Source: Gammaproteobacteria bacterium (GTDB lineage: Bacteria > Pseudomonadota > Gammaproteobacteria > S012-40). From it: a stretch of DNA of 64,000 nucleotides. The stretch lies in assembly GCA_029881255.1 (NCBI GenBank), contig JAOUMY010000004.1:85313-149312 (forward strand). The letters run 5' to 3'. Within the stretch, counting starts at the first letter, position 1, and every line of letters starts with the position of its first letter. The translations under genes and the position numbers were made by a program. Below are positions 21,655 to 47,194 of this stretch, piece after piece. Below the pieces are notes generated by a model. It ran no database searches, was not told where the DNA came from, and was given only the letters and a program-made list of their open reading frames with translations.

Positions 21655-22251
21655 ATGTATTTTCGGAAAAAACAGGGAGGTTTATATAAAAGATTGGGCG
21701 CGAATATGTATTTACCTACCAGCGAGCGACAAATATGGTTGTTGATAGCACTGCTTGTGCTTTCAGTACTATATACAGGCGTTGCGTTTGCGAAAGAGTA
21801 TAAGCTCGGTTTTGGAGAGGTTTTGTCGGTAACTGTTTATGACGAACCGGACTTAAGTCTGGACGTTGTACGAATTCAAAAGAGCGGGGAAATAACTCTA
21901 CCCCTGGTGGGTTCTGTAAAAGCGGTTGGTAGGACTGTGACCGAAATTGAGCAGGATGTAACCGCCATGTATCGCGATGGGTATCTAAAAGAACCGAAAA
22001 TTACGGTAGCAATTAGGAGCTATCGAAATTTTTTTACAAACGGGCAGTTGAGAAGTCCAGGGGCATATACCTTTGTAGAGGGACTAACCGTAAGAAAAGC
22101 GATTTCAATTTCTGGCGGCATGACGGATCGTGCTTCCCACGAGAAAATATTATTAAAAAAGGAAAATGGCATATCAGAGATTAAGGTAATCGATCTGGAC
22201 CAGGAAATGGGGCCAGGAGATATTTTAACAGTGGGCGAAAGCCTCTTTTAA
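21655..22251 (+). CDS. Wza-like polysaccharide export protein
   Basis: A short (198 residues) periplasmic/outer-membrane export protein. A signal-like segment (WLLIALLVLSVLYTGVAFA) precedes the Poly_export domain (YKLGFGEVLSVTVYDEPDLS, IQKSGEITLPLVGSV) and one SLBB-like region (QLRSPGAYTFVEGLTVRKAI). It has no lipobox Cys and no C-terminal outer-membrane helix, so it is a minimal VpsN-type protein that would need the barrel at 8094. The start is uncertain: ATG 21655 has no ribosome site, TTG 21694 has GGGAGG 13 bases upstream, and ATG 21706 gives the most typical signal peptide. It is followed after 16 bases by its kinase partner. Confidence 0.85.
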   Translation: MYFRKKQGGLYKRLGANMYLPTSERQIWLLIALLVLSVLYTGVAFAKEYKLGFGEVLSVTVYDEPDLSLDVVRIQKSGEITLPLVGSVKAVGRTVTEIEQDVTAMYRDGYLKEPKITVAIRSYRNFFTNGQLRSPGAYTFVEGLTVRKAISISGGMTDRASHEKILLKKENGISEIKVIDLDQEMGPGDILTVGESLF

Positions 22252-22267
22252 CAGGAAGTATTGGTAG

Positions 22268-24478
22268 ATGTCTCGCAACAGGAACTCATCCCACAACAGC
22301 AGATTAACCACGCATGGTAAGGCTGAGGGTATGGGAAATTATTTTGCCGTTTTGCGTCGTAATCTTCTTACCATTATAAGCTTTTCAATCTTGTCTACTG
22401 TTATAGGTTATTTTTGGGCAGCCAATATACCACCGGCCTATCGTACTTCAGTAACACTTGTGGTCGATTCTAATAAATCCGCGCAATATTCCATACACAC
22501 ACCGGTCGGTCTGACCAGAAGTCTGAACTACGAACAGGCGCAAATTGAATTAATACGAAGCCGAGCGGTTGCAGAAGCCGTTATCTCTAACCTTGGGCTG
22601 AAGAAGCATGCTGATTTTCTTCCTCAGAAAAAGGGGATGCTTGATATTGTAATTAGCAAAGTGACGGGTGCAAACCAAGAAGCAAAAATCAGTCGTGAAG
22701 AAAGAGATGAGGGGCTGGAAGAAATACCCATCTATATAAAAGCTTTTGCACAGAGACTTGATGTGGCGTACGAGAGCGCCAAATCTATCATCAGAATATC
22801 GTACGAATCCACAGACAAGGTGATCGCAGCCAAAGTAGCCAACGAAATAGTGGCAGTATACTTGGAAGTATTGAAGAAGGTAAAAAATGAATCGGATGTG
22901 AATACGGCGGGTTGGTTGAGTGCCAGGTTAGAGGAAGTGCGGAAAACACTGGTGCAGTCTGAGGCAAGGTTAAAGGCCTTTCAAGTGGAAAAAAGCATCG
23001 TGGATAGTAATGATGAAAATAGCGTCAGAAGCAGCAAACTAGGCGGGATTACATCGCAGATTGTTAAGGCCAGGGCGATGCGCGCGGACGCGGAAGCCGT
23101 CTACAACGAGGCAAAGAAAATCGTCTCCGCCTCTGGAGTCAAGGCGATTTCTTCAATCGTAGACGACGACCAACTGCTCGAAGCAAAGTTGCGTGAAAGT
23201 GACGCAAATCGAGAAGTAAGCCTGTTATCCAAACGATATGGGGAGAAACATCCGAAAATGAAGGCTGCCCGGTCTCGATACCAGCAACTCTCTGCTCAGG
23301 CAAAAGCAGAGGCTCAGCGAGTTTTTCGCCGTGTGAAAAGATCATTGGATTTGGCGTTGGAGCAGGAAAAAGAAACAGATGCACTATACAAGCAGCTACA
23401 ACAGGAATTAGCTTCGACAAAAGACAAACAATTTGAACTCGCCAAAATGGAAATGGATGTTTCCACCAATAGAGAACTTTATGATTTATTATTGATGCGT
23501 TTGAAAGAGGCCGATATCAATCGCGCGGACAATGTTGCCGATGTTAGAGTGCTAGACCCAGCAGCGGTTCCCAGTGCGCCCTATAAGCCCAATCGAACTA
23601 AGATTATGCTCTTCTCGTTTCTGATCGGATTCGGCTTAAGTCTAGGCATGGCTGTCATTCGAGAAGCCAATGATCCAACCTTCAAGACCGCCGAGGACTT
23701 ACTTTCAATCCCCGGCGTACCGGTACTGGGTATTATGCCTCAGTTGTCACGTCGAGAAATTCGAAAATATTCGGCTGAGAAGATTGCGGTCGGGAAATCA
23801 CGATCCTCTGCTGCTGAAGCGATAAATAATATTCGAACGAATGTGATATTCAGTTCGAGTGACAGGGCGCCAAAAATTACCCTGGTCACATCGGCTGTTG
23901 CATCAGAGGGAAAAACTACCGTCAGCAGCAATCTTGCCATTTCAATGTCCATGCTTGGCCCGACACTTTTGATAGAGGCCGATACGCGTCGACCTCGCGT
24001 AGGAGAGTTTATGAAAGGGAAAGTCTTGGGTGGAATTTTTGAGTATGTTGCAGGTAAGCATAAATTGAAAGATTGTGTAGTAAAGGACGACGCGGCGGAG
24101 AACCTCTATGTTATGCCAGTAAAGACAATGCCTGCTAATCCACTCGAAATGTTCTCAAGTAAGCGTTTTGACGAAGTTTTGAAAAAACTCAGTAAAAAGT
24201 TTGAATACATTGTAATCGATTCACCACCAGTATTACCTGTTAGCGATTCAATAGTGATATCTTCCAAATGCGACGGTGTCGTGCTGGTCGTGGGTGCAGA
24301 AAGTACTCATAAAAAAGCAGTGTATGGCGCCTTAGACCGACTAAATCGTGCAGGAGCCAGGGTCTTGGGCACAGTTCTGTCTATGGCTAATATTCGCACC
24401 ATTCATTCCTATGGTGACCATTACTATTACGGTTACGAGAAATACCAGAGTGATGGCAAGATGCCCAAATTAGCCTGA
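22268..24478 (+). CDS. Wzc-like chain-length regulator and tyrosine autokinase
   Basis: A 736-residue inner-membrane protein. The Wzz part has transmembrane segments near residues 33-55 and 438-460 flanking a long periplasmic coiled coil. The cytoplasmic BY-kinase has Walker A ASEGKTT (about 544-551), Walker A' LLIEADTRRP and Walker B YIVIDSPP. The Asp usual in Walker A' has Glu before it (IEAD), but the AD core is kept. The C-terminal tail has a tyrosine cluster (SYGDHYYYGYEKY) for autophosphorylation. It controls polymer length and export with the Wza-like protein upstream. A second paralogue is at 32058. Confidence 0.92.
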   Translation: MSRNRNSSHNSRLTTHGKAEGMGNYFAVLRRNLLTIISFSILSTVIGYFWAANIPPAYRTSVTLVVDSNKSAQYSIHTPVGLTRSLNYEQAQIELIRSRAVAEAVISNLGLKKHADFLPQKKGMLDIVISKVTGANQEAKISREERDEGLEEIPIYIKAFAQRLDVAYESAKSIIRISYESTDKVIAAKVANEIVAVYLEVLKKVKNESDVNTAGWLSARLEEVRKTLVQSEARLKAFQVEKSIVDSNDENSVRSSKLGGITSQIVKARAMRADAEAVYNEAKKIVSASGVKAISSIVDDDQLLEAKLRESDANREVSLLSKRYGEKHPKMKAARSRYQQLSAQAKAEAQRVFRRVKRSLDLALEQEKETDALYKQLQQELASTKDKQFELAKMEMDVSTNRELYDLLLMRLKEADINRADNVADVRVLDPAAVPSAPYKPNRTKIMLFSFLIGFGLSLGMAVIREANDPTFKTAEDLLSIPGVPVLGIMPQLSRREIRKYSAEKIAVGKSRSSAAEAINNIRTNVIFSSSDRAPKITLVTSAVASEGKTTVSSNLAISMSMLGPTLLIEADTRRPRVGEFMKGKVLGGIFEYVAGKHKLKDCVVKDDAAENLYVMPVKTMPANPLEMFSSKRFDEVLKKLSKKFEYIVIDSPPVLPVSDSIVISSKCDGVVLVVGAESTHKKAVYGALDRLNRAGARVLGTVLSMANIRTIHSYGDHYYYGYEKYQSDGKMPKLA

Positions 24479-24486
24479 ACAGGTGC

Positions 24487-25227
24487 ATGATGCGACTGTC
24501 CAGGATACGATTCACATTTCTCTTCATCTTCCCGGCTTTGTTCGCGGTCTTATTAGGCACAGGTGCTCTCACTTATTCATCTTTTCTAACCTTGATAGCG
24601 GAATACAATCTAGATCAATGGGAATGTCGTGGAACTGTCAGCGATGATGGGGAATGGCAGACACAGGCGGAGAATCTGAATCAAGCGAAAAAGATAGAAC
24701 AATTTGATGCAAATGTATCTCTTGATTTGGGTCGATTGCATGAATTTCGTGCGCTATCAAAGCCTATATGGAGCGATGACGCCAAAATCAGTCGAAAGCA
24801 GTCGCTAGACTATTATCAAGAGGCGACAACTCAGCGTCCAACCTGGGCGCTGGCCTGGGTGAACGTTGCGCAGGCACGGTTGTTAAATCAGCAGATTGAC
24901 AAAGAGACATTCGATGCGATGCGAAAAGCGTTTCAATATGGCAGGTGGCAAGAGAAGGTGCAACAGCGTCTGATTTGGCTTGGGGTAGGAATGTGGAGCG
25001 TGTTGCCTGTGGATCTGAAAGATGAGATTCGCGCAGTCGTTCGCCAAACGCTGGAACAAGACTACCGTGTTTATGGGCTTATAGTACTCGCCTACAGGCA
25101 AAAATGGGAAGGTGAACTGAAAAAGCTCGTTACGCGTAAAGAACACTGGGAGATTATAAGACGAATAGAAAAGAATGGAAATGAGTTGAACGAATACTTA
25201 CGCAAGCAGCAGGCAAGGAAGTGTTGA
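24487..25227 (+). CDS. VpsP-like polysaccharide biosynthesis protein
   Basis: A 246-residue protein with one N-terminal membrane anchor (about residues 8-38) followed by a periplasmic helical, TPR-like domain (YYQEATTQRPTWALAWVNVA). It sits between the Wzc-like kinase and an O-antigen ligase-like gene. This matches VpsP of Vibrio-type vps clusters in place, size and layout. Its biochemical role is unknown in the family. The start is one of two adjacent Met codons (24487 or 24490). Eight bases separate its stop from the next start. Confidence 0.6.
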   Translation: MMRLSRIRFTFLFIFPALFAVLLGTGALTYSSFLTLIAEYNLDQWECRGTVSDDGEWQTQAENLNQAKKIEQFDANVSLDLGRLHEFRALSKPIWSDDAKISRKQSLDYYQEATTQRPTWALAWVNVAQARLLNQQIDKETFDAMRKAFQYGRWQEKVQQRLIWLGVGMWSVLPVDLKDEIRAVVRQTLEQDYRVYGLIVLAYRQKWEGELKKLVTRKEHWEIIRRIEKNGNELNEYLRKQQARKC

Positions 25228-25234
25228 AAATACG

Positions 25235-26689
25235 ATGAATGAAGTAGTTTATAGTAATCTTCAAGAAAAGATAATTTTTGCACTATTTCTGATATTGCTG
25301 GTCTGGGCACCTATTCCGCTAGGCAGTAACAGGGATATCGGTTGGACGCTGTTGTCTACTGCATCGACAATTTTGCTTGCCTGGTCTGCCGCTTTGCTTT
25401 CGGTTCGTAGAATGACGCTTACAAAAAGCTTCTTCAGGCTTAAGCTCGTTTATCTGATGTTTATAGCCCTGGTATCTTTACAAATAGCGCAAGTCGTCCT
25501 CATACCAATTGATATCATCAAACAGTATTCACCTCAACACTTAGGAAAACTATCTTTGCAGGACATCTATGTAGGTGCTGAAGCCTTGTCTATAAGTGTC
25601 GATCGCAATCAAACTATAGAATATCTGATTCGTTTCATTTCCTATATCTCTGTGTTCCTACTAACTGTTTTACTCGTAAATGGAAATAGTCGGCTAGTCT
25701 GGCTATTACTAGCGATGTCTGTGTCCGGCGTATTGCAGAGTATCTATGGAATCGGAGAACTGATTTACAATTACGCAGCCACCAGTGCCTTTACCATATT
25801 GCATGGAACATTTGTCAACAATAATCATTTTGCTGCCTACCTAAATATGGTGGTTGGTAGCGTCCTGGGTCTTTTGCTGTTGGCGACCTACAGTAATCGA
25901 AGTGGCACCGTAGGTTTTATACGTAGTTTTGGAACTCAGCAATTTTCTGTTACCGTTTACTTGATATTGTGTATCGTGGCCCTTTTGTTGGCCCAGTCAC
26001 GTGGTGCTGGTATCGCCTTTGTTGTCGCCTTTCTATCGGTATTTGTGTTAATCAACATAAACGATAAAGGAAAAGAATGGTTCGGCCGTCGCATGGTTGG
26101 TTTGGCGCTGCTGCTGCTATTTATGATTTTTCTATTTGGAAACAAAATCATTATTGATGAGTTAAAGAATGTTGACACCGATATGCTCACGCGTATGGAG
26201 ATATGGGAAATTTCCTTACAAATATTTAAAGATTTTCCTCTATTCGGAGTAGGAGCGGGCAATTTCGCCACGGTTTTTCCAGTATATGAAAGTCGGCACA
26301 TGTCAGTGTTCGTCAATCACGTGCACAATGACTATATTCAGGTACTAGTCGAGCAGGGGATTAGCGGCTTTGCAATAATGGCTATTTTGATACTGTTATG
26401 TATCGGTGCGGCCTTCCGCATTTTACGTGCGTCCTCCAATGTCCATGTGCTTGTTGCTACCAGCGTGGGGATGTTTGGGGTGGTGAGCATGCTAGTGCAC
26501 GCTCTGGTGGATTTCAATTTCTATATTCCCTCAAATGCCGCTTATTTTTTTGTCTTCCTGGGACTCTCTGTTGCGAATATCGATAAAGTAAAAAAGGCGA
26601 CTAGGGCAAGGACGAGAACAAGTCAAACCGCCATCGACGAACAAGTATTAGAAAGACCCGCGTTTACGCTTTCCGAGCCACAAGCCTGA
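25235..26689 (+). CDS. O-antigen ligase/polymerase family membrane protein
   Basis: A 484-residue polytopic protein of the Wzy_C type with about 12 membrane segments. The large periplasmic loop carries FVNNNHFAAYLNM (about residue 188) and the signature FGVGAGNF...HVHNDYIQVLVEQG (about 345-380), which are common to O-antigen ligases and related polymerases. It could ligate or polymerise the exported glycan. It ends the first polysaccharide cluster, and its stop is about 95 bases before the lexA start. A paralogue is at 39026 in the second module. Confidence 0.85.
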   Translation: MNEVVYSNLQEKIIFALFLILLVWAPIPLGSNRDIGWTLLSTASTILLAWSAALLSVRRMTLTKSFFRLKLVYLMFIALVSLQIAQVVLIPIDIIKQYSPQHLGKLSLQDIYVGAEALSISVDRNQTIEYLIRFISYISVFLLTVLLVNGNSRLVWLLLAMSVSGVLQSIYGIGELIYNYAATSAFTILHGTFVNNNHFAAYLNMVVGSVLGLLLLATYSNRSGTVGFIRSFGTQQFSVTVYLILCIVALLLAQSRGAGIAFVVAFLSVFVLININDKGKEWFGRRMVGLALLLLFMIFLFGNKIIIDELKNVDTDMLTRMEIWEISLQIFKDFPLFGVGAGNFATVFPVYESRHMSVFVNHVHNDYIQVLVEQGISGFAIMAILILLCIGAAFRILRASSNVHVLVATSVGMFGVVSMLVHALVDFNFYIPSNAAYFFVFLGLSVANIDKVKKATRARTRTSQTAIDEQVLERPAFTLSEPQA

Positions 26690-27460: not shown

Positions 27461-28219
27461 TTGATACGTAAGTCAATCTCGGCAATTCGCCTAGCACTTC
27501 AGTTTTTAACTCGTCTCCCGGTGAAATCATCGCCAACCGTTCCCACAGATCACGAGTTGGCGAGCTCGGTAAAAGCCTTTCCTATTGCAGGCGCGGTTAT
27601 TGGTTTTGTACTGGCGTGTTTTATTGTCCTTACACAAGCTCTTCCGGATTATCTCCAGGCTGCCCTAGTTTTGATCGTATGGGTCGCGTTAACGGGTAAT
27701 CTGCACATGGACGGCTTAGCGGATACGGCTGATGCCTGGGCAGGTGGTAGAGGGCAAAAGGATCGTATTCTCGCTATTATGAAGGATCCGCACACCGGGG
27801 CTGCCGCTGTGAGTGTCGTGGTGCTCACATTGTTAGTCAAATGGTCTGCGGTCTCGGCTTTGTTACCTGGCGACAACCTGCTCGTTTTTTTTCTGGTTCC
27901 CATAGTCCCACGCGCAACAATGTTGCTATTTTTTACCTCTATGCAATATCTACGAAGTGAAGGTGGTTTGGCCTCTGGATATAGCGATGCGATTTCTCAT
28001 ACGACTCTTGCCGCAATTTTACTGCTCACATTTCTTGTCGTGATAGCGCTTGCTGCCTGGCTAGGCATTCTCATGTTTGCGGCAGCAGTAGCAAGTTTTG
28101 TAATTTTTTATTTCTATTGGCGACTCCTGCTCGGAGGATATACCGGTGATATTATTGGGGCATACGTGGAAATAACGGAGTGTCTTATGCTCGTCGTCGC
28201 CGTGGCTTGGCTAGTTTAA
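27461..28219 (+). CDS. cobS: Adenosylcobinamide-GDP ribazoletransferase (cobalamin synthase)
   Basis: Joins adenosylcobinamide-GDP with alpha-ribazole in the last steps of vitamin B12 assembly, in the inner membrane. It has 252 residues, with LALQFLTRLPV at the N terminus, the signature HMDGLADTADAWAGG (about residues 84-98) with its acidic metal site, and about six hydrophobic segments. The start is TTG at 27461, with AAGAGG 10 bases upstream. No other cobalamin gene is nearby, so it may serve salvage or work with genes elsewhere. Its end overlaps the convergent nsrR by 4 bases. Confidence 0.92.
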   Translation: MIRKSISAIRLALQFLTRLPVKSSPTVPTDHELASSVKAFPIAGAVIGFVLACFIVLTQALPDYLQAALVLIVWVALTGNLHMDGLADTADAWAGGRGQKDRILAIMKDPHTGAAAVSVVVLTLLVKWSAVSALLPGDNLLVFFLVPIVPRATMLLFFTSMQYLRSEGGLASGYSDAISHTTLAAILLLTFLVVIALAAWLGILMFAAAVASFVIFYFYWRLLLGGYTGDIIGAYVEITECLMLVVAVAWLV

Positions 28220-28671
28220 GATGGCTTGCGAGGGAACCATTTTACCGCTGTCTCTGCCCCTTCTTCTACCGCGCATGAAACCATGTCAGCCAGCGTATAT
28301 CGTCTCAACTCGGCTAAAAACGCATCAGTTGCCCGGCCTAGTACGGCTTTTAGTCGACAAACGGGTTCCACGGTACATGCTGGGCTTTCCGCATCGAAAC
28401 ATTCAACAACATTGAAATGAGGCTCTGTGTCCATAACGACATCGGCGATATTGATGTCTATTGCCTTGCCCGATAAACTCAAGCCACCCCCTTTTCCCCT
28501 TGTGGAAATTATATAGCCTTTCAAAACCAGGTTATGGACGACCTTGACTAAATGATTGCGTGAGATTTGATAAAACTCGGCTATTTCACCGATTGTGCTC
28601 AGTTTGTCACCATGAATTTCCAGATAAATCAGAGTTCTGAGAGAATAATCGGTGTAAAGGGTAAGTTGCAT
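28216..28671 (-). CDS. nsrR: NsrR-type nitric oxide-sensing repressor (Rrf2 family)
   Basis: A 151-residue Rrf2-family regulator. The winged helix begins MQLTLYTDYSLRTLIYL and continues ISRNHLVKVVHNLVLKGYI, close to NsrR. Three Cys (91, 99, 105; ECFDAESPACTVEPVC) have the spacing that binds the Fe-S cluster destroyed by NO. GAGG precedes the ATG. It is divergent from the truncated-haemoglobin operon, whose promoter holds an NsrR-like operator. Repression of that operon, relieved by NO, is the natural reading. Other Rrf2 proteins such as IscR have different Cys spacing. Confidence 0.88.
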   Translation of the reverse strand: MQLTLYTDYSLRTLIYLEIHGDKLSTIGEIAEFYQISRNHLVKVVHNLVLKGYIISTRGKGGGLSLSGKAIDINIADVVMDTEPHFNVVECFDAESPACTVEPVCRLKAVLGRATDAFLAELRRYTLADMVSCAVEEGAETAVKWFPRKPS

Positions 28672-28747
28672 GGGTCACCTCGGTTGTAGCCCAGTTTACT
28701 CCGTATTCAGTTCACGTTCAAAAACATGTATTCAGGATATATATTTA

Positions 28748-28776
28748 TTGACAAATTCAATAACCCGATATTTAAT
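28748..28776 (+). promoter_or_regulatory. Sigma-70 promoter of the truncated-haemoglobin operon
   Basis: TTGACA (28748-28753, consensus) and TTTAAT (28771-28776, 5/6) are 17 bases apart. Transcription should start near 28783, leaving an 83-base leader. Confidence 0.75.
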
Positions 28777-28794
28777 GCATTTAAGATGCATCTT
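28772..28794. promoter_or_regulatory. NsrR-like operator overlapping the -10 box
   Basis: An 11-1-11 inverted repeat: TTAATGCATTT (28772-28782), A, AGATGCATCTT (28784-28794). It follows the known NsrR pattern AAGATGCYTTT-N-AAARGCATCTT. It covers the -10 and the start point, so bound NsrR would block transcription. Confidence 0.72.
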
Positions 28795-28865
28795 TAAAGG
28801 ACGATATGGTAGGGACACTTTTTTAGATTGAGTTTTGTATGTCAATAACCACGGAGAAAAAGTAA

Positions 28866-29234
28866 ATGAGTGAAACATTGTATGATCGCCTGGGTGGGGA
28901 AGCGGCTGTAAATGCAGCTGTGGACATCTTCTATCGTAAAGTTCTTGCGGATGATCGTATCAATCATTGGTTCGAAAATACAAACATGGAAAAGCAAGCG
29001 GCCAAGCAGAAAGCCTTTCTTACCATGGCGTTTGGTGGCCCACATAGCTATACCGGCAAAGATATGCGCGACGGACACGCTCACCTCGTTGCGAAAGGCT
29101 TAGGTGACGTAGACTTCGATGCGGTTATCGAGAATTTAGGGGCTACCTTGCAGGAGCTGAATGTACCGCAAGACATGATCGCTGAGGCAGCGGCCATTGC
29201 AGAAAGCACTCGTAACGATGTGTTAGGCCGCTAA
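28866..29234 (+). CDS. Group I truncated haemoglobin
   Basis: A 122-residue 2-on-2 globin of the trHbN type. It begins TLYDRLGGEAAV, the usual N-terminal motif. FYRKVLAD gives the B-helix Tyr23 likely to contact bound ligand. FGGPHSYTGKDMRDGHAHL (about residues 56-74) holds the proximal His71. Proteins of this group bind O2 tightly and convert NO to nitrate when re-reduced. The reductase gene 11 bases downstream and the NsrR-like operator upstream support an NO-detoxification role here. GGAG precedes the ATG. Confidence 0.93.
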   Translation: MSETLYDRLGGEAAVNAAVDIFYRKVLADDRINHWFENTNMEKQAAKQKAFLTMAFGGPHSYTGKDMRDGHAHLVAKGLGDVDFDAVIENLGATLQELNVPQDMIAEAAAIAESTRNDVLGR

Positions 29235-29245
29235 GTTTTCACGCC

Positions 29246-30217
29246 ATGCCGCAGCTCCAATTTAGAGAAAAGTTCTATACCACTGAGGGCGAGGAATCTG
29301 TTTTAGATTGCTTGCTGCGGCACGGTGTTGAAGTTCCCCATAGTTGCAAGAAAGGTACTTGCCATACCTGCACACTAAAAGTGACAGAGGGAGTGGTTCC
29401 TGAAGAGTCTCAACGTGGATTAAAGGATACCGAAAAAGCGCAGGGTCTTTTTCTATCGTGCTCCTGTCGTCCAAGCGCCGATATGACGGTATTACTACCT
29501 GACGTGAGTGGTCAACAGCACACGGTAAGTGTATTGCAAAAAGATCACATCGCTGACGATGTGATTCGTCTTAGGCTAGATGTTCCCGATGGTTTTAGCT
29601 ATCGTCCTGGTCAATTCATCAACCTCTACAAAACACCTGTCATAACTCGATCTTATTCTCTTGCGAGCATGGGCGATTCTGAAGCCTTCCTCGAGCTACA
29701 TATAAAACATGTTAAGGGCGGACAAGTTAGTGATTGGCTTGCACAAGACCTAAAACCAGGTGACGAAATTGTAATCGGTGATGCCCTTGGAAGTAGTTTT
29801 TACCTAGCGGAAAAACTGGATCAAAATCTGCTTCTTGTCGGCACTGGAACAGGATTGTCGCCACTGTACGGGATCGCCCGTTCAGCTGTGGCGTCGGGGC
29901 ATACAGGGCAGATCAAATTGTTTCACGGTAGCAGGACCCGAAACGGACTTTATCTGGATCGTGAGTTACGGAAGTTTGCTGATGACGTGAGTAATTTCGA
30001 ATATACTGCGTGTGTTTCCGGAGAATCAAATTTGCCTGTAGGTTTTCATGAGGGGCGTGCGAATGACTTGGCGCTCAAAGAGAACAAGGATCTGAAGAAT
30101 TGGCGTGTATTTTTATGCGGACATCCAGATATGGTGGAGAAGACCAAGCTCAAAAGCTATCTTGCAGGTGCATCGCTTTACGATATTCACGCGGACCCAT
30201 TTATCCCAGCAACATAG
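29246..30217 (+). CDS. Ferredoxin-FAD-NAD(P)H reductase, probable partner of the truncated haemoglobin
   Basis: A 323-residue electron-transfer protein. The N terminus is a plant-type 2Fe-2S ferredoxin (Cys34, Cys39, Cys42 and Cys72 or Cys74; SCKKGTCHTC). It is followed by an FAD domain (RSYSLAS, about residue 135) and an NAD(P)H domain (LVGTGTGLSPL, about 198-208; CGHPDMV near 292). This is the layout of class IB oxygenase reductases. Next to a truncated haemoglobin it would supply electrons, together doing what a one-piece flavohaemoglobin does. The ATG lacks a clear ribosome site and may rely on coupling to the globin gene 11 bases upstream. Confidence 0.88.
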   Translation: MPQLQFREKFYTTEGEESVLDCLLRHGVEVPHSCKKGTCHTCTLKVTEGVVPEESQRGLKDTEKAQGLFLSCSCRPSADMTVLLPDVSGQQHTVSVLQKDHIADDVIRLRLDVPDGFSYRPGQFINLYKTPVITRSYSLASMGDSEAFLELHIKHVKGGQVSDWLAQDLKPGDEIVIGDALGSSFYLAEKLDQNLLLVGTGTGLSPLYGIARSAVASGHTGQIKLFHGSRTRNGLYLDRELRKFADDVSNFEYTACVSGESNLPVGFHEGRANDLALKENKDLKNWRVFLCGHPDMVEKTKLKSYLAGASLYDIHADPFIPAT

Positions 30218-30232
30218 TTCACATGCGACGAC

Positions 30233-30670
30233 ATGTTTAGTCGATTAGCCAGAGATCCTTTGTTCTGGTTTGCCTGCCTGGCTGCCATTATTCTTTGGAT
30301 AATTCTCAACGTTTTTGGCGACGCCGTTTTTTCGTTTGAATCTCCAAAGAAAGATTCCACGACCTTTCTATTAATGGTCGTTCTCATTTATCCTTTGTTA
30401 GAAGAGTTGGCATTTCGTGGCTGGCTACAAGGTCAATTGTTACGGCTTAACCGCTTGAGTGTGACGCTGTGGTTGGTGAGTTCTGCGAATGTTCTGACAT
30501 CCATTGTGTTCGCTGGTGTGCATATAGTGGCGCAACATGCGATGTTGGCGGGCCTTGTTTTTTTTCCCTCCCTGGTATTTGGCTTGTTTCGTGAGCGCTA
30601 TGATAGTGTGCTTCCTTCAATATTGCTGCACGCTTTCTATAATTTCGGGTGGTTTTTATGGGTGGTCTAG
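30233..30670 (+). CDS. CPBP-family intramembrane protease
   Basis: A 145-residue membrane protein with about four hydrophobic segments. It has the three conserved motifs of CPBP/Rce1-like glutamic proteases: LLEELAFRGW (Glu57, Glu58, Arg62), SIVFAGVH (His near 97) and LLHAFYN near the end. It is short, about the minimal family size, as in the small proteases that process C-terminal sorting signals. It lies 15 bases after the reductase and is probably on the NsrR-controlled transcript. Its substrate is not evident; no sorting-signal protein was seen in the window. Confidence 0.75.
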   Translation: MFSRLARDPLFWFACLAAIILWIILNVFGDAVFSFESPKKDSTTFLLMVVLIYPLLEELAFRGWLQGQLLRLNRLSVTLWLVSSANVLTSIVFAGVHIVAQHAMLAGLVFFPSLVFGLFRERYDSVLPSILLHAFYNFGWFLWVV

Positions 30671-30800
30671 CTCAGAAGTTGCCGGAATACTTGACACTAA
30701 CCTGCTAATACTAATGTATTAATTGTTTAACACACGAATTCTAATTTTGCGTCACTAAAACTCATTAACGTATTAATTTTAGAGTATATATTTGGGTGAA

Positions 30801-30822
30801 AAGACACTTGGGGTGTTTTTTT
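30801..30822 (+). terminator. Short terminator after the globin operon
   Basis: AAGACAC pairs with GTGTTTT (one G-U) around TTGGG, followed by more T residues. It lies about 130 bases after the protease stop. Confidence 0.4.
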
Positions 30823-30872
30823 GAAACCAATTATCCTGTCGAGATATCTTACAAACCAGTATTGGTTGATGG

Positions 30873-30901
30873 TTGAATGGGTCTAATTAATTGTATTTAA
30901 T
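30873..30901 (+). promoter_or_regulatory. Sigma-70-like promoter in the intergenic region
   Basis: TTGAAT (30873-30878) and TTTAAT (30896-30901) are 17 bases apart. Predicted start near 30908, pointing toward the hairpin and the export operon. Confidence 0.5.
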
Positions 30902-30907
30902 GACAAA

Positions 30908-31120
30908 AAATGAATTGGTCCGATACCTGCTAAACCTCCCGTGCTGGTTGTAGTAGGCTTCTATTTCCTGCCGTATGGACAGGTGGCTTTATGGAAGGAC
31001 TAATCAGCGAATGAGGTAAGACCTCTCGCAAACATAAGAAGTTACGGACAAATAATAAGAAGATACTTACGAGGCCACGAGATTTACAACAGGGACATGT
31101 TGTTACTCGTGGCTTTTGTT
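30908..31120 (+). ncRNA. Candidate small RNA or attenuated leader
   Basis: Bounded by the promoter at 30873-30901 and the hairpin at 31074-31120, giving an RNA of about 210 bases. Smaller stems inside are CCTG/CAGG (about 30968-30983) and GAGG/CCTC (about 31013-31025). No known riboswitch core was recognised. If transcription reads through the hairpin, it would be the 5' leader of the second polysaccharide operon. Confidence 0.35.
31074..31120 (+). terminator. Strong hairpin with T-tract
   Basis: GCCACGAG (31074-31081) pairs with CTCGTGGC (31106-31113), then ACAACA pairs with TGTTGT inside, closing on GGGACA. TTTTGTTT follows at once. A good rho-independent terminator about 200 bases before the export gene. 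Confidence 0.7.
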
Positions 31121-31317
31121 TATATGCAGTCTTATCCGCGGAAAACTTCCCTTTAACAGCTCATTAAGTCAAATCGTCTATTATGCCCGCTGGTACTCAA
31201 TGATATTGCCAGCTTTAGTGTCGTCCTGTCGGTTACTGGTATATCATATGCCGGCCCTGTCTTCAGATTATGTTAACAGTATTTTCAAAATAAATTGCAG
31301 TGAGTTCCTAGATCGAT

Positions 31318-32058
31318 ATGACTGGACAAATTAAACCGGGATTGAGTCCGTTCAGAGTTATGGTGCGACTAATTTTGGTGATTACGATATTAGTATTTTT
31401 TCCGTTTGAGTCGATGGCTCAGCAGGAGTTGGATATTATTGCTGCGGATCCACATTCACTTGAATATGGCGACCCTAGTACGCGCCCGGAAGCAGGTACC
31501 CATGAGTACAGAATTGGACCGCATGATTTGCTAGAAGTAGACGTATTCAGAGTGGAAGAATTTACCCGAGTTGTCAGAGTTAATTCGCGGGGAAGCATCA
31601 GTCTGCCCTTGATTGGCTCGGTCGTGGCACATGGAAAAACCAGCGAGGAACTGGAACAGATAATCGCAAAATCGCTGCAGTTGAGTTTTCTTCAAGAACC
31701 ACATGTCAGTGTATTTGTAAAAGAATATGCAAGCCAGAAAGTAACGCTAGAAGGCGAGGTGAAGAAGCCTGGTCTATATGCATTGACGGGACGTACGACT
31801 GTTTTACAGGCGATTGCCATGGCAGAGGGACTGACGGATTTGGCGGATATTGGTGGCGTGCAACTCTTTCGCCCTAATCGTGATGGTCGAATGCTGAGTT
31901 ATGTTCTCGATGTTAAAGCGATACGCAACGGCGAGACGCGAGATCCGCTGGTATTTGGCAATGATATTCTAGTCGTTCATCGCGCCACATTTAGATCGTT
32001 TACCAAAGCACTGACCGATACCTTGCGCGGCTTTGTCACATTTGGGAGACCTTTTTAA
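31318..32058 (+). CDS. Wza-like polysaccharide export protein, second module
   Basis: A 246-residue secreted export protein. The signal segment (VRLILVITILVFFPFESMAQ) is cleaved near residue 35. The Poly_export domain has YRIGPHDLLEVDVFRVEEFT and VNSRGSISLPLIGSV, and one SLBB part has VTLEGEVKKPGLYAL. There is no lipobox Cys. It is a different protein from the one at 21655, longer at both ends. The stop overlaps the start of the kinase by one base (TAATG). It is the first gene after the hairpin-containing gap. Confidence 0.88.
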   Translation: MTGQIKPGLSPFRVMVRLILVITILVFFPFESMAQQELDIIAADPHSLEYGDPSTRPEAGTHEYRIGPHDLLEVDVFRVEEFTRVVRVNSRGSISLPLIGSVVAHGKTSEELEQIIAKSLQLSFLQEPHVSVFVKEYASQKVTLEGEVKKPGLYALTGRTTVLQAIAMAEGLTDLADIGGVQLFRPNRDGRMLSYVLDVKAIRNGETRDPLVFGNDILVVHRATFRSFTKALTDTLRGFVTFGRPF

Positions 32059-34337
32059 TGTCTCAATGGCCTGAACGTCGGCGTAGCGATATCGGTGGGG
32101 GAGAGGTTCGACATCTTTCTGAACGCCGAAGAAAAACGGACGCGGTCGACGATAACTACCTCGCTCGTCAATTGGTATTAGAATCGTATCAGGAAGAACC
32201 TCAGGTCAATCTACGTGATTATTGGCAGATACTCAGACGTCGACAGTCGATTATTTTACTCTTTGCTGGCTTGGTGTTGTTCACTACCTTGATTGCCAGC
32301 ATGTTGATGACGCCAATCTACCGCGCTAGTTTGTTGTTGCAAATTGATCGTGAATCACCCAAGGTGCTCAATTACCAGGATGTGACGCCAGTCGAGTCTA
32401 TCAATGATAAAGACTTTTATCAGACCCAATACGAATTGCTCAGAAGTTATACCTTAGTCAAACGCGTGATAAATGAACTAGACCTGATCCACCATCCCGT
32501 ACTGTTAAAGGAAACGGAGCCTTCCAGTCTGCGCGCTGTTATGGGTGAAATGTTGCTCTGGTTTGCAGAGGAGCAGGAGAATCGATTAAGCGAAGATAAT
32601 CGATGGCTGGAATATTTTTTAAATCGATTAACGGTGGAGCCAGTCAAGAATTCACGTTTGGTTCGCGTGCATTTCGATAGTACAGACCCTGAAACCGCGA
32701 CAATGATTGTGAATAACTATGCCGAAAACTACATCAACATGAATCTGGAGCGTCGATACGATGCTTCCTCATATGCGAAATCATTTCTTGATGAGCGCCT
32801 GGCAAGCGTGAAGATTCGCCTTGAAGAGTCTGAGCAGCGTTTGGTGGCGTTCGCACGGCAAAATCAAATCATTAATATTGATGACAAGCAAAATATCGAT
32901 ACTGAAAAATTGCGTGAAACGAACCTTGCCCTCGCTAGGGCGGAACAGGCTAGAATTTCCAGTGAGGCAATTTTCAATGAAATGAGGAAAGCGGAGGATG
33001 ATCATTTATCCGAAATACTTGATAGTGAAGTCATACAAACGCTGAAAAACAACAAAGCAAAGCTGGAAGCTGAATATGAAGACAAGCGCCGAGTATTTAA
33101 GCCTGCATATCCGGCGATGTTGCAGCTAGCAGGGCAGATTGAGATTATTGAGAAGAAGATTCATCTCGAAATTGCTAGTGTACGTGCGGCTTTAGAAGCC
33201 AAATACAATGCAGCCAGAGACAAAGAAAACATGTTGCGCGAGAATTTGGCGGAAATTAAAGAAAGCGTGTTAGCTCTGCAGGATCGTAGTATACAGTACA
33301 ATATACTCAAGCGTGAGGTCGACACTAATCGAGAGTTATACGAAGGCTTGCTACAACGTATGAAAGAGGTTGGGGTAGCGGGTGGAATCAGTACCAATAA
33401 TATTTCGGTGGTAGATCCCGCTGCGATTCCTGACAAGAAACACAAGCCACGTCTGCTCATCAACATGTTGTTAGCACTGTTCGTCGGATTTCTAGGCGGA
33501 GTCGGTCTGGCGTTTCTTTTCGAGCACCTGGATGACAGCATAAAAATGCCAGAGGATTTCGAGAGACTGGTACAACTTCCCGTTATTGGCCTGATTCCCT
33601 TCCATGAATCGAAAGGGCGCGATGATGTAGATGTAGCCCTGATGTGCTATACCGATCCGTCATCGGCAGTTGCGGAAGCCTATCGCTCAATGCGTACGGC
33701 GCTGAATTTTTCCACCACTAACGGTGCACCGCAAGTCATGTTGGTAACCAGTCCTTCTCCTGGTGAAGGTAAGAGTACAACAGCGCTTAGCACGGCGATT
33801 ACGTTTAATCAGACGGGCAAGAAGGTATTGCTTGTCGATACAGACCTGCGGAATCCGTCATTACACAAAATGCTCAATCTATCTAATGCCGATGGGCTTT
33901 CCAATTTTCTGACCGGCAACAGTAAACCGATTGATGTGTCACACGCGACAAATATTGATAACTTGTTTGTAATTACATCAGGTCCAGTGTGTCCAAATCC
34001 GGCTGAGCTTTTGTCAGGGACGCGGATGCAGGAGTTGCTGGTTTACGCCCGCGAAGCATTCGACTGTATTGTTCTTGATGGCCCGCCTGTTTTGGGTCTG
34101 GCCGACGCGCTATTGTTGTCAAATATGGCAGATGGGACCCTGATAGTCGCAGAGTCAGGCGTCACGCGCCAAGATTCGCTTAAATCGAGTGTTAAACGAC
34201 TGCGCAATGCGCGGGCTCATCTCATTGGTGGTTTGGTAACCAAAGTCAGCGAGCATATGGTTGGGTATGGGCAATATGCCGGTTATTATTACTATGAACG
34301 TTCCGATGGGCAGGACCAGCCTCGGCTGCCAGTGTAA
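32058..34337 (+). CDS. Wzc-like chain-length regulator and tyrosine autokinase, second module
   Basis: A 759-residue paralogue of the protein at 22268. An Arg-rich cytoplasmic N terminus (about 65 residues) precedes the first membrane helix (about 72-94). A long coiled coil and a second helix (about 470-490) follow. The BY-kinase has Walker A SPGEGKST (about 566-573), Walker A' LLVDTDLRNP and Walker B CIVLDGPP. The tail has a tyrosine cluster (YGQYAGYYYYE). These are the classical kinase motifs, fuller than in the first copy. Its dephosphorylation by the CpsB-type protein at 40524 is likely, as the pair usually occur together. Confidence 0.93.
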   Translation: MSQWPERRRSDIGGGEVRHLSERRRKTDAVDDNYLARQLVLESYQEEPQVNLRDYWQILRRRQSIILLFAGLVLFTTLIASMLMTPIYRASLLLQIDRESPKVLNYQDVTPVESINDKDFYQTQYELLRSYTLVKRVINELDLIHHPVLLKETEPSSLRAVMGEMLLWFAEEQENRLSEDNRWLEYFLNRLTVEPVKNSRLVRVHFDSTDPETATMIVNNYAENYINMNLERRYDASSYAKSFLDERLASVKIRLEESEQRLVAFARQNQIINIDDKQNIDTEKLRETNLALARAEQARISSEAIFNEMRKAEDDHLSEILDSEVIQTLKNNKAKLEAEYEDKRRVFKPAYPAMLQLAGQIEIIEKKIHLEIASVRAALEAKYNAARDKENMLRENLAEIKESVLALQDRSIQYNILKREVDTNRELYEGLLQRMKEVGVAGGISTNNISVVDPAAIPDKKHKPRLLINMLLALFVGFLGGVGLAFLFEHLDDSIKMPEDFERLVQLPVIGLIPFHESKGRDDVDVALMCYTDPSSAVAEAYRSMRTALNFSTTNGAPQVMLVTSPSPGEGKSTTALSTAITFNQTGKKVLLVDTDLRNPSLHKMLNLSNADGLSNFLTGNSKPIDVSHATNIDNLFVITSGPVCPNPAELLSGTRMQELLVYAREAFDCIVLDGPPVLGLADALLLSNMADGTLIVAESGVTRQDSLKSSVKRLRNARAHLIGGLVTKVSEHMVGYGQYAGYYYYERSDGQDQPRLPV

Positions 34338-34388
34338 TTGCAAGTTCATTGTGATAATATCCTAAGCCTAAGATTAATAGGTAAATAA

Positions 34389-37055
34389 GTGTACGACTCT
34401 CATTACGGATATTCCGAGATTCCATTCCGGCTGAGTCCGGACCCTTCTTTTTATTTTGGAAGTAAGGGACATAACCGCGCGCTGGCGTATTTGCGTTATG
34501 GTCTTACACAAAAAGAGGGGTTTATCGTCGTTACCGGTACCCCTGGCACCGGGAAAACCACTATCGCGCGGACACTGTTACAGGAAGTTGGCAGTGAGCG
34601 TATCGTTGTTTCAGAGCTCAACACAACTCACCTTCAGGCTGACGATGTTTTACGTATGGTGGCAGCCTCTTATGGGCTTGAACATGAAAACACTTCCAAG
34701 GCCAGTCTTCTAAAGCGCCTGGAGCAATTCTTTCTGGCCAAGTTTCGCGCCGGATATCACTGTTTGTTGATGATTGATGAGGCACAGAACCTGCCATTTG
34801 AATCGATCGAAGAATTGCGCATGCTCTCGAACTTCTATCAGGGCAACAACGCGCTAGTGCAGATATTCCTGCTTGGGCAAGAACAGTTTCGAGATATGTT
34901 ATACATGCCCAAGTATGAGCAGTTGAGACAGCGGGTAGTCGCAGCCACACATTTAGAGCCACTTAGCGCACGCGACACGAGAGACTACATCATGCACCGC
35001 CTGACCAGAGTGGGTTGGACGGGGGAAAATCCTGCTTTTACCAAACGTGCCTTTGCGCATATCTACGCCTTAACTCAGGGTATTCCCAGACGTGTTAACA
35101 CCTTCTGTGACAGATTGTTGTTGTTTGGATCATTGGAAGGTATCGATGTCGTTGATGAGAACGCGGTACAGAATGTTGCTAAGGAATTAATGTATGAGGG
35201 TACTGGTAAGAAACCCGAGGATGCTCCGACCGAAGCGATGAAATTTCAGTTCGTCGACGATGACGATGATGACGTCGTCGACGATATCGAAGACGATCAG
35301 GAATTAGATTTACCCGTAAAACAGATAGTGGAGCAAACTGTCACAAAAAATTCGCCTCCAGAAAAAGTGGAAGCGACCACAAAAGAAACAAAGGTAGCTG
35401 TTGAGCGCGAACAGGAGAAGGAAGTCGATATTGTCCGGCCAAGCCTGACGCTGGTTTCCAATAATAGTTCTGCCCAGCCAAAACGCGAAGAATTGCCCTC
35501 AATACAACCGAAAACTTTACCATCAGAACATGAGTGGGTTGCTTTTTTACGTGAAGTTGTTCAGTTAAATCAAACACGTAATATGGAACTGCTTTTTGAG
35601 CATGCTCATAAACCGGTTTCTCCTCATTTGCGCAATCTGCTGGAATTGACTAGTGGACAGCGACAAATACCAGGACATCTGCATCATTTGTTCGGAAAGA
35701 CAGATCAACGTGAACTCAAGAGAGCGATACGATTTTATGTCCAAGAGACCTTGCTGAATAGTTCGGCAGATTATTACCGACGATTGGGGTTGCCCAGCAG
35801 AGTCGATGAAGCATCGGTTAAGATTCACTACCAACATTTATTTAAGTTATTCCAGCCGGACAGCAATATCGACGCGGAACAATGGGACAGGCGACACACT
35901 CAGCGAATAAATCAAGCCTATGCGACCTTGCGTGATCCGCATAAGCGAATTGCATATGATCAGTTTCTTGAAGACCTTCAGTTACAGGCTAATCAAGATG
36001 TATCTCAACAGTCGGCCTTTGTTGATAGTGTTGACGTTGAAGAACCAGACTCAAACATGGAAGTTGCGACAACTGATCCACAAATTGAATACGACTCTGG
36101 CGAGAGCAAAAAATCAGGGTCTGGCCTCATTTGGGCATTGTTGGTCTTTCTTATGGCGGCGGGAGGCGGTGGTTTCTGGTTTTATACGACCACTATGTCT
36201 GATAATTCGTCGGCCAGTCACATTGCGTCCTTGGCTGATTCAGACAAACCTATTCGATCGGGTGGAATCAATCGAGAAGCCATAACCGAAGAATCAAATA
36301 CCCAAGAAACTGCTCCCGCTCATGTTGAAGAGCCAGTGTACGAGGCTAAAAGCAGTGTGAGCGAATCTATCAGACAGACCCAGCCAGAGATATCGGTAGA
36401 AAAGGAGTCGGTTGGCAAGAAAACACCAGTGTTAACAGATCAAAGCACACGCTTATCGACGTCCAACAAGCGAAGAGATGAAGCGGTGACGCCGACGCCA
36501 GTTGTAGTTGAGAAAGTTACGCCTAAGAAAGTAACAAAGGAACCGGTTGAGCGAAAACCACCCAAAACAACTAAAGAAAGTCAGGTTGCAGAGAGCGGCC
36601 TGGATACAGAAGCTAAGACAAAAGTCGCTCAGATTTCCTCAAATGGAGATCAGAAGAAGAATATCGTCGAAACGAAAGCTCCTATTCCTAACAAGAAGGA
36701 GTTAAATGAGATGTTGCAGAAATTCTCACTGGTCTATGAAACCGGTGATATTGATGCCTTTATGGAAATGTTTGTCGACGAAGCATATACAAATGATCAG
36801 GAAAACAAAGAAGGTATACGCAAAGATTATCAGGCGCTATTTGCGAATACGATAATGCGTACCATTGATATCACTAACGTAAGTTGGTTAATCAAGGATG
36901 ATAAGGCTCGTGGTAAAGGTGACTTCGTTGTCACTGTAAAGCAAAAGGGCAATACTCAGCAACGCGTTGTTGGCACAATTTCAATTGGTTTCGTGAAGAA
37001 GCAAGATAAACTGTTTCTCACCGATATGTTGCATACCTATAATTTGAATAACTAA
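34389..37055 (+). CDS. ExeA-like AAA ATPase fused to a degenerate J domain, membrane helix and NTF2-like domain
   Basis: An 888-residue multidomain protein. Residues 1-275 are a secretion-type AAA ATPase of the ExeA/MshM and exosortase-locus kind (YFGSKGHNRALAYLRYGLTQ; Walker A GTPGTGKTT 50-58; Walker B LLMIDE 126-131). A long acidic linker follows, then a J-domain-like helix pair (about 460-530) in which HPD is changed to QPD. A single membrane helix is at about 577-598, then a Lys/Glu/Thr-rich stalk, and the last 120 residues look NTF2/SnoaL-like. The ATPase would be cytoplasmic and the last domain periplasmic. It starts at GTG 34389 and overlaps the next gene by one base. I know no standard family with this architecture. 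Confidence 0.8.
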   Translation: MYDSHYGYSEIPFRLSPDPSFYFGSKGHNRALAYLRYGLTQKEGFIVVTGTPGTGKTTIARTLLQEVGSERIVVSELNTTHLQADDVLRMVAASYGLEHENTSKASLLKRLEQFFLAKFRAGYHCLLMIDEAQNLPFESIEELRMLSNFYQGNNALVQIFLLGQEQFRDMLYMPKYEQLRQRVVAATHLEPLSARDTRDYIMHRLTRVGWTGENPAFTKRAFAHIYALTQGIPRRVNTFCDRLLLFGSLEGIDVVDENAVQNVAKELMYEGTGKKPEDAPTEAMKFQFVDDDDDDVVDDIEDDQELDLPVKQIVEQTVTKNSPPEKVEATTKETKVAVEREQEKEVDIVRPSLTLVSNNSSAQPKREELPSIQPKTLPSEHEWVAFLREVVQLNQTRNMELLFEHAHKPVSPHLRNLLELTSGQRQIPGHLHHLFGKTDQRELKRAIRFYVQETLLNSSADYYRRLGLPSRVDEASVKIHYQHLFKLFQPDSNIDAEQWDRRHTQRINQAYATLRDPHKRIAYDQFLEDLQLQANQDVSQQSAFVDSVDVEEPDSNMEVATTDPQIEYDSGESKKSGSGLIWALLVFLMAAGGGGFWFYTTTMSDNSSASHIASLADSDKPIRSGGINREAITEESNTQETAPAHVEEPVYEAKSSVSESIRQTQPEISVEKESVGKKTPVLTDQSTRLSTSNKRRDEAVTPTPVVVEKVTPKKVTKEPVERKPPKTTKESQVAESGLDTEAKTKVAQISSNGDQKKNIVETKAPIPNKKELNEMLQKFSLVYETGDIDAFMEMFVDEAYTNDQENKEGIRKDYQALFANTIMRTIDITNVSWLIKDDKARGKGDFVVTVKQKGNTQQRVVGTISIGFVKKQDKLFLTDMLHTYNLNN

Positions 37056-41333: not shown

Positions 41334-42839
41334 TTAAGCCGCTTCGGTTTTGTGTAGTTCGAATGTGAGTTCTGGTTCATTGTCTTCGCTGACAGTCTCC
41401 AGCTTTACATTGAATCCCCACAAACGCCCCAAATGTTTCATAACTTCTTCAAGGCTATTGCCCAACGGACGGCGATTGTATTGGTAATGTCTGAGCGTCA
41501 GCGATCGGTCCCCTCGAACATCAACTTTATAAACCTGAATATTGGGTTCAATACTGCCGAGGTTGTACTGGTCGGCCAGCTTTTGGCGCACGGTACGATA
41601 GCCTTCATTATTGTGTATTGCCGAAATTTCAATATGACTGTTTTTGTCGTCGTCGAGGACGGAGAAAAGTTTTAAATCACGAATGACTTGTGGTGACAAA
41701 TACTGAGCGATAAAACTCTCATCTTTAAAATTGCGCATTGCAAAATCCAGAGATTCTATCCAGTTGCTACCAGCAAGGTCAGGGAACCAGTAACGATCTT
41801 CGTCAGTCGGTTTCTCACAGATACGGCGGATATCGCGGAACATGGCGAAGCCGAGGGCATAGGGGTTGATGCCTGAATAATATGGGCTATCAAAGGCTGG
41901 TTGAGATACAACATTGGTATGTGACTTTAAGAACTCCATCATAAAGCCATCGGTAACCAATCCTTCTTCGAATAATTTGTTCAAGATGGTGTAGTGCCAA
42001 AACGTCGCCCAGCCTTCGTTCATAACCTTGGTTTGACGTTGAGGGTAGAAGTACTGCGCGATCTTGCGTACGATGCGCACAATCTCTCTCTGCCAGGATT
42101 CCAGCAGTGGCGCATTTTTTTCAATGAAATACAGGACGTTTTCCTGCGGTTCTTCAGGAAAATTGTGCTCTTGTTTGTCTTCCGTTTTTTTGCCGAAATT
42201 GGGGATGGTGCGCCAGAGTTCGTTTATTTGGGACTGAATATAGGCCTCACGTTCTTTTTGTCGGGTCTGCTCTTTCTGCAACGAAACGGGTTGAGGCCTC
42301 TTGTAGCGATCTACGCCATAGTTCATTAATGCGTGACACGAATCGAGGATTGCTTCCACCGCTTCGACTCCGTAACGTTTTTCGCATTTGGCGACATACT
42401 TTTTGGCAAATAGAAGATAGTCAATTATGGCATCGGCCGAAGTCCATTGCTGAAAGAGATAATTATTCTTAAAGAATGAATTGTGTCCATAGGCAGCATG
42501 GGCGATTACCAGAGCCTGCATCATCATGGTGTTCTCTTCCATCAAATATGAGATACAGGGATTGGAATTGATAACGATTTCGTAGGCGAGCCCCATTTCG
42601 CCCCGCTTATAGCGTTTTTCTGTTTCAAGAAATTGTTTGCCAAAAGACCAGTGGTGATAACCAACAGGCATACCGACAGAAGAATAGGCATCCATCATTT
42701 GTTCAGCGCTGATAACTTCGATCTGATTTGGATAGGTATCCAGTCCGAACTCTTTAGCAACTCTGGAAATTTCTCGGTCGTATTCCTCTATCAACTCGAA
42801 GGTCCAGTCAGAACCGGTAGATATAGGTTCACGCTTCAT
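41334..42839 (-). CDS. SpoVR/YcgB family protein
   Basis: A 501-residue soluble protein of the SpoVR family. Marks include WHYTILNKLFEEG, the region YGINPYALGFAMFRDI, and YWFPDLAGSNWIESLDFAMR. The function is not known at the molecular level. It is the third gene of the conserved prkA-yeaH-spoVR set, which is tied to starvation and stress. It lies 8 bases after yeaH. The C-terminal 110 residues form a separate alpha/beta part (DVRGDRSLTLRHYQYNRRPL). Confidence 0.93.
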   Translation of the reverse strand: MKREPISTGSDWTFELIEEYDREISRVAKEFGLDTYPNQIEVISAEQMMDAYSSVGMPVGYHHWSFGKQFLETEKRYKRGEMGLAYEIVINSNPCISYLMEENTMMMQALVIAHAAYGHNSFFKNNYLFQQWTSADAIIDYLLFAKKYVAKCEKRYGVEAVEAILDSCHALMNYGVDRYKRPQPVSLQKEQTRQKEREAYIQSQINELWRTIPNFGKKTEDKQEHNFPEEPQENVLYFIEKNAPLLESWQREIVRIVRKIAQYFYPQRQTKVMNEGWATFWHYTILNKLFEEGLVTDGFMMEFLKSHTNVVSQPAFDSPYYSGINPYALGFAMFRDIRRICEKPTDEDRYWFPDLAGSNWIESLDFAMRNFKDESFIAQYLSPQVIRDLKLFSVLDDDKNSHIEISAIHNNEGYRTVRQKLADQYNLGSIEPNIQVYKVDVRGDRSLTLRHYQYNRRPLGNSLEEVMKHLGRLWGFNVKLETVSEDNEPELTFELHKTEAA

Positions 42840-42847
42840 CTGCTACC

Positions 42848-44125: not shown

Positions 44126-44151
44126 ATTGATAATCCTGTTGTTGTCTACTG

Positions 44152-47115: not shown

Positions 47116-47136
47116 ATTATCTGAGACTCAATATAG

Positions 47137-47168
47137 AAACCACGTCCATTGGGCGTGGTTTTTTTTTG
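47137..47168 (+). terminator. Rho-independent terminator
   Basis: AAACCACG (47137-47144) pairs with CGTGGTTT (47154-47161) over a 9-base loop and runs into a long T-tract. It ends the HPF-cold-shock transcript. Confidence 0.88.
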
Positions 47169-47194
47169 TCTATACATTTCTTCAGCTCGATTGT

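Follow-up and report, generated by a model that had tools for sequence, protein, structure and literature searches.

The locus considered here raises two questions: whether a truncated haemoglobin (trHb) and a reductase, encoded next to a divergent NsrR-like repressor, can replace the flavohaemoglobin Hmp in the destruction of nitric oxide (NO), and whether the membrane protease encoded directly behind them belongs to the same system. Hmp has been described as the most conserved NsrR target (PMC1274295). The locus lies in a window of 64,000 nucleotides, by which is meant the whole stretch of DNA that was analysed, and the following features of the window are discussed below.

28216..28671, minus strand: nsrR-like gene encoding a putative Rrf2-family repressor, 151 aa (Pfam Rrf2, NCBIfam, PDB, cysteine spacing)
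28748..28776, plus strand: sigma-70-like promoter, TTGACA-17-TTTAAT (read from the sequence)
28772..28794, plus strand: predicted NsrR-like operator, TTAATGCATTTAAGATGCATCTT (overlaps the -10; 13/14 of the published NsrR consensus; kept in relatives)
28866..29234, plus strand: group I trHb, 122 aa (Pfam Bac_globin, PDB 3aq5, alignment)
29246..30217, plus strand: [2Fe-2S]-FAD-NAD(P) reductase, 323 aa (Fer2 + FAD_binding_6 + NAD_binding_1)
30233..30670, plus strand: mrtJ, CPBP-family JDVT-CTERM sorting protease, 145 aa (NCBIfam NF033192)
34389..37055, plus strand: XrtA/PEP-CTERM-type ATPase (TIGR03015, 332.8 bits, cut-off 324.5)

The nsrR-like gene is divergent from the trHb, reductase and protease genes, which follow each other on the plus strand with gaps of 11 bases (trHb to reductase) and 15 bases (reductase to CPBP protease). 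Judged by this spacing, the three genes probably form one transcript. The anatomy of the locus, that is the coordinates, gaps, protein families and divergent regulator, had been given in an earlier, sequence-only reading, and proved correct when the sequence was read again and family searches were made. On either side of the locus, at 21655-26689 and 31318-37055 of the window, lies a set of genes for polysaccharide export and chain-length/tyrosine-kinase functions.

The haemoglobin, the reductase and their pairing

The trHb matches Pfam Bac_globin (PF01152) with 64.9 bits, the cut-off being 21, and its best PDB match is the group 1 trHb 3aq5 (3.5e-35), with cyanoglobins also among the best matches. 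When aligned to 3aq5, its haem pocket displays Tyr23, Gln44, Gln48 and His71, which we take to be the helix positions B10, E7, E11 and F8 of trHbs. In an alignment of 17 rows His71 is invariant and Tyr23 nearly so (at least 90%). The PF01152 match, the group 1 PDB relatives, the proximal histidine and the B10 tyrosine together place the protein among the group I trHbs. Single open reading frames with two or three tandem group I trHb matches are found in six relatives (L049, L055, L066, L043, L046, and L054), and for the one such frame that was tested (G008:C67) Pfam gives three PF01152 stretches in 402 aa. In three Zetaproteobacteria records (L175, L185, and L224) the reductase is preceded by two consecutive trHb domains.

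The reductase starts with a plant-type ferredoxin domain containing four cysteines (Cys34, Cys39, Cys42 and Cys72, invariant in 14 alignment rows), followed by the FAD and the NAD domain, a layout that presumably corresponds to what is called class IB. Its best PDB match is 5ogx, a cytochrome P450 reductase. No curated NCBIfam cut-off was exceeded among the best 25 of 33 rows, the top one being PRK05713 with 194.6 bits vs a cut-off of 338.

The two genes were searched for in 56 genomes, comprising the window's own genome and genomes of the same family and the same class. Relatives of the trHb are found in 25 of these (E up to 0.001, distant trHbs included) and relatives of the reductase in 34 (E up to 1e-20, paralogues included), while an adjacent pair is found in 15, the window's own included. 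Among the 15, G012 has a distant 37% globin, and in G013 the reductase is a fragment lying at the end of a contig; a further case at a contig end, in G036, is not counted. When the reductase alignment was used to scan named genomes, at least 557 candidates were confirmed, and the best 80 loci, that is the closest relatives, were kept. In 72 of these best 80 of at least 557 candidates a trHb is encoded upstream of the reductase, on the same strand and within 700 bases; the nearest gap does not exceed 60 bases in 53 of these 72 loci and 250 bases in 71. The remaining eight (L160, L166, L167, L168, L197, L209, L227, and L229) have no trHb upstream, with only 106 bases available there in L160. Still within the best 80 of at least 557, a divergent NsrR accompanies 37 of the 72 pairs; the other 35 have none within 2.5 kb, three of them having less than 2.5 kb of upstream sequence. 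The adjacency of trHb and reductase genes near nsrR, which had been proposed as a check in relatives, is thus borne out. Taken over all pairs, 41 of 87 are without a divergent NsrR, and because of these other regulators may serve some of the pairs.

According to the record titles, the matches come from Methylobacter, Methylovulum, Methylomonas, Methylococcus, Gallionella, Sideroxydans, Zetaproteobacteria, and other Gammaproteobacteria, while odd titles such as Blastopirellula and Chthonomonas may reflect misbinned records. As far as gene neighbourhoods can tell, the trHb-reductase arrangement is widespread.

Operator, promoter and regulator

The promoter hexamers, read directly from the sequence, are TTGACA at 28748-28753 and TTTAAT at 28771-28776, with a spacer of 17 bases. 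This promoter is not listed by the promoter scan, which accepts only -10 hexamers whose second base is A. The strict scan gives four promoter-like sites at 27500-31500 vs a shuffle mean of 7.1, and due to this low count the promoter by itself is weak evidence. The predicted operator at 28772-28794 overlaps the TTTAAT hexamer, in agreement with the earlier claim that it covers the -10 of a sigma-70-like promoter.

The published NsrR consensus is gATGyAT-N5-ATrCATc (PMC1274295), and the window site agrees with it at 13 of 14 positions, which is what would be expected of an NsrR operator at a target promoter. In the 4.97-Mb genome AANATGYATNTNANATRCATNTT is found in two places when up to two mismatches are allowed, while the reversed-pattern control is found in none. 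The second place was rejected as another NsrR target since it lies inside an open reading frame that, going by its translation only, resembles a chemotaxis receptor. A search of the whole genome with the letters of the window site itself, allowing up to three mismatches, gave no place besides that site.

The operator was further scored upstream of the trHb in 87 trHb-reductase pairs, 46 with a divergent NsrR, the window locus being one of these, and 41 without. A score of at least 12/14 is reached in 35 of the 46 and 9 of the 41 loci, compared to none of 86 control stretches downstream of the reductase (one stretch was too short and was dropped) and 7 of 1740 mononucleotide shuffles. With the threshold lowered to 11/14, the corresponding numbers are 43/46, 15/41, 7/86 and 100/1740. 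A looser pattern, at 14/18 or more, also gives 43/46 and 15/41, with 0/86 for the controls and 44/1740 for dinucleotide shuffles. These thresholds were picked after the counts had been seen, and neighbouring ones are given alongside. The looser pattern and AANATGYATNTNANATRCATNTT were adjusted after a first scoring of operators and are partly circular; the scoring of the 14 published positions repeats the test that was made with the adjusted pattern. Judged by these counts, the predicted operator is more than chance. The upstream regions with at least 14/18 by the looser pattern number 58, and the 45 bases upstream of the operator contain a TTGACA-like hexamer (at least 5/6) in 51 of them vs 205 of 1160 shuffled stretches, and an exact TTGACA in 34 vs 13.

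Many of the matches are by their record titles methanotrophs and iron oxidisers, taken here as low-oxygen dwellers, and group II and III trHbs have been discussed as oxygen carriers to methane monooxygenase (PMC11102522). The trHb could accordingly be imagined to take part in oxygen delivery or other haem chemistry, for instance nitrite reduction, with the reductase merely keeping it ferrous. However, an NsrR-type operator ties the expression of the pair to NO, and the one electron stated to be needed per NO dioxygenation (PMC3820574) fits a reductase driven by NAD(P)H. A role in oxygen delivery or other haem chemistry is thus considered unlikely, and a role in NO destruction is preferred.

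The regulator belongs to the Rrf2 family (Pfam Rrf2, 111.7 bits, cut-off 30) and contains the three cluster cysteines, spaced C-X7-C-X5-C. Its best PDB match is NsrR 5n07 (7.8e-15), and NsrR is also the best specific NCBIfam model with 126.2 bits. Since this is below the curated NsrR cut-off of 182 the protein is called NsrR-like. Among the NsrR-type domains of the loci that reach a score of 150, 47 of 48 have the 7/5 spacing, the window's included. C-X7-C-X5-C is also the spacing of RirA, and the RirA model ranks second in NCBIfam (108.3 bits, cut-off 193), as would suit an iron-responsive, RirA-like repressor that lets the pair answer to iron or Fe-S status. Yet NsrR outscores RirA, both being below their cut-offs, and the operator agrees with the consensus published for NsrR at 13 of 14 positions; control by iron is therefore considered very unlikely, and the NsrR-like assignment is kept below.

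Hmp and the proposed function

No separate hmp that could carry the NO response was found, which is in favour of the sequence-only reading: the Hmp model gives no match over its cut-off in any of the 56 genomes, the window's own included, and two control genomes pass. Partial matches below the cut-off, either globin-only or reductase-only, occur in 42 of the 56 genomes, and in G038 one of each kind lie side by side; Hmp-like pieces are not absent everywhere among these genomes. A hidden Hmp in the window's own genome was rejected, as only two partial matches are found there and neither is over the cut-off. One is a globin within a chemotaxis receptor, while the other is the reductase part at C1:950631, the site of a 32% reductase paralogue.

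At G000:C3:453818-454204 (L243, 925-3873) is found a 982-aa chemotaxis receptor with PF00042 globin, PAS, HAMP, and MCP signalling domains. The PF00042 globin is the part matched by the Hmp model, and the receptor adjoins genes that read like che genes. Several relatives have Hmp-model globin matches in frames of 780-1110 aa.

As for other NO genes, the window's own genome has no Hcp match, no RIC/DnrN over the cut-off, and one NnrS. The NnrS locus has no operator site above 12/18 upstream, a level also reached by 730 of 1740 shuffles, and NnrS was therefore rejected as another NsrR target. As this NnrS has no good operator in front of it, the trHb-reductase pair may not be the only NO response of this genome.

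The pair had been named a two-piece flavohaemoglobin. This holds as a functional analogy, since a globin and an FAD/NAD reductase are combined in both, but not as membership: Hmp is a single chain with globin and FAD/NAD domains, while the parts are here encoded by separate genes, the globin is a truncated PF01152 globin, and the reductase carries an extra [2Fe-2S] domain. To our knowledge, Hmp is without a [2Fe-2S] domain.

An arrangement of this type is known from Legionella pneumophila, where glbN-lpg2536 was predicted to be an NsrR target and proposed to perform an Hmp-like NO oxidation (Rodionov et al., 2005; PMC1274295). In the available text of that work it is the sole predicted NsrR target in Legionella, hmp and nnrS being absent (PMC1274295). 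Section 11.7 of Gardner (2012) states the same arrangement, citing another reference (PMC3820574). Compared by description, both loci have a cyanoglobin-type trHb and a ferredoxin reductase gene, a predicted NsrR site, and no hmp, and the locus in the window resembles the Legionella operon in that an NsrR site precedes neighbouring genes for a trHb and a reductase. They differ in that nnrS is absent from Legionella while NnrS is found here without a good operator, and in the neighbouring mrtJ, which the available text does not mention for Legionella. The arrangement is thus already known, having been predicted in print in 2005, and is found here to be widespread, often with a conserved operator. 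In a methanotroph a group I trHb is reported to be transcribed at a very high level, and a response to NO was suggested (PMC8788690). In the accessible part of the open-licence literature no experimental test of a trHb-reductase pair was recognised.

The conserved pairing and operators, the lack of Hmp over the cut-off in the 56 genomes, and the 2005 prediction all agree with the earlier proposal of an NsrR-controlled trHb with a dedicated reductase in place of Hmp. It is considered highly probable that the NsrR-controlled pair replaces Hmp in NO destruction and that the protease, MrtJ, belongs to JDVT-CTERM sorting. When no NO is present, the NsrR-like repressor would be bound at 28772-28794 and block RNA polymerase at the -10. 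NO would destroy or nitrosylate the Fe-S cluster of the repressor, which would then leave the DNA, and the trHb and the reductase would be made as one transcript. Electrons would pass from NAD(P)H via FAD and the [2Fe-2S] domain of the reductase to the haem of the trHb, and the oxy-haem would convert NO to nitrate, that is, act as an NO dioxygenase. The pair would in this way take over the role of Hmp, of which this genome has no match over the cut-off. In this genome mrtJ would probably be read from the same promoter, owing to a local rearrangement.

MrtJ, JDVT-CTERM sorting and the meaning of the locus

The protease scores 94.5 bits with the MrtJ model NF033192 (cut-off 75) and is the only MrtJ over the cut-off in its genome. 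The same genome encodes four JDVT-CTERM matches over the cut-off, dispersed and away from mrtJ: two subtilase-family proteins, one 561-aa DUF11 protein, and one protein of 2947 aa. Their tails display Gly-Cys, Asp-Pro, a hydrophobic stretch, and Arg/Lys. A score above the cut-off together with JDVT-CTERM substrates in the genome identifies the protein as an MrtJ. Among the JDVT-CTERM proteins of this genome (L240-L242), besides the 2947-aa one, are the two subtilase-family proteases, which are encoded next to each other.

MrtJ and one JDVT-CTERM target have been described as a two-gene neighbourhood that occurs sporadically in beta- and gammaproteobacteria and is linked to myxosortases (PMC11980579). 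The window's genome shares with the described system (NF033192/NF033191) an MrtJ over the cut-off and JDVT-CTERM proteins with Gly-Cys...Asp-Pro tails. The difference is that the described MrtJ is found beside a single target, while here there are four dispersed ones and mrtJ abuts the NO operon.

MrtJ exceeds the cut-off in six relatives from the same family, and in five of these mrtJ is followed by a homologue of the ATPase encoded at 34389-37055 of the window. These homologues were found by phmmer, the TIGR03015 score being that of the window ATPase only. In G003 one gene lies between mrtJ and the ATPase homologue, and in two of the five relatives the gene order beyond the ATPase is like that of window 41334-48715. 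The placement of mrtJ before the ATPase in L235-L239 (compare window 30233-37055) hints that JDVT-CTERM sorting may be connected with an exopolysaccharide/XrtA-like locus.

It could be argued that MrtJ works in the NO response, NO inducing it together with the pair so that JDVT-CTERM proteins are processed under nitrosative stress. The gap between the reductase gene and mrtJ is only 15 bases, and no plus-strand promoter-like site is listed at 28745-30765, a weak argument as the strict scan misses the main promoter too. Moreover, one MrtJ and four JDVT-CTERM matches occur in the same genome, and the relative G001 has mrtJ and the pair about 22 kb apart on one contig. The surveys point the other way. 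A single-sequence phmmer search of up to 4 kb on each side gave no MrtJ-like match at any of the best 80 of at least 557 reductase loci, where a single query could miss a distant MrtJ. The class-wide survey found MrtJ over the cut-off in 53 of 369 genomes, and among the 58 mrtJ loci, which are all the places over the cut-off in the family and class-wide surveys (10 + 26 + 22), only the window's own has a trHb or reductase gene beside mrtJ, as judged from flanks of roughly 1.5-3 kb, some of them truncated at the end of a contig. In five of the six family relatives mrtJ instead precedes the ATPase. A function of MrtJ in the NO response has therefore very little probability, and MrtJ as a conserved partner of the pair was rejected on the same counts. 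A crude regular expression for JDVT tails matches at eight of the 58 mrtJ loci, the match in L271 looking spurious, and this count is given no weight here.

It seems that only in this genome does mrtJ adjoin the NO pair. MrtJ is judged to be outside the NO system since it was not found beside the pair at the 80 best named loci and has another conserved neighbourhood in five of six family relatives; although adjacent, it most likely belongs to JDVT-CTERM surface-protein sorting. The membrane protease that the sequence-only reading saw in the operon thus stands for this genome, by its spacing, while as a part of the system it does not. That MrtJ has been captured by the NsrR promoter in this lineage, with NO controlling the surface anchoring of JDVT-CTERM proteins, is highly improbable; if true, nitrosative stress would be linked to the sorting of surface proteins, with two subtilase-type proteases among the targets, a connection of which no description was found in the available literature.

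The protease is a case for caution against inferring function from adjacency alone. As to the pair, a prediction made in 2005 for a single organism is extended to methanotroph, Gallionella/Sideroxydans, Zetaproteobacteria, and other Gammaproteobacteria records. The set of nsrR, trHb and reductase is present in Methylococcus capsulatus (L179) and Methylomonas lenta (L204), and its activity is therefore open to test in named hosts. The reductase is a likely native source of electrons for group I truncated haemoglobins.
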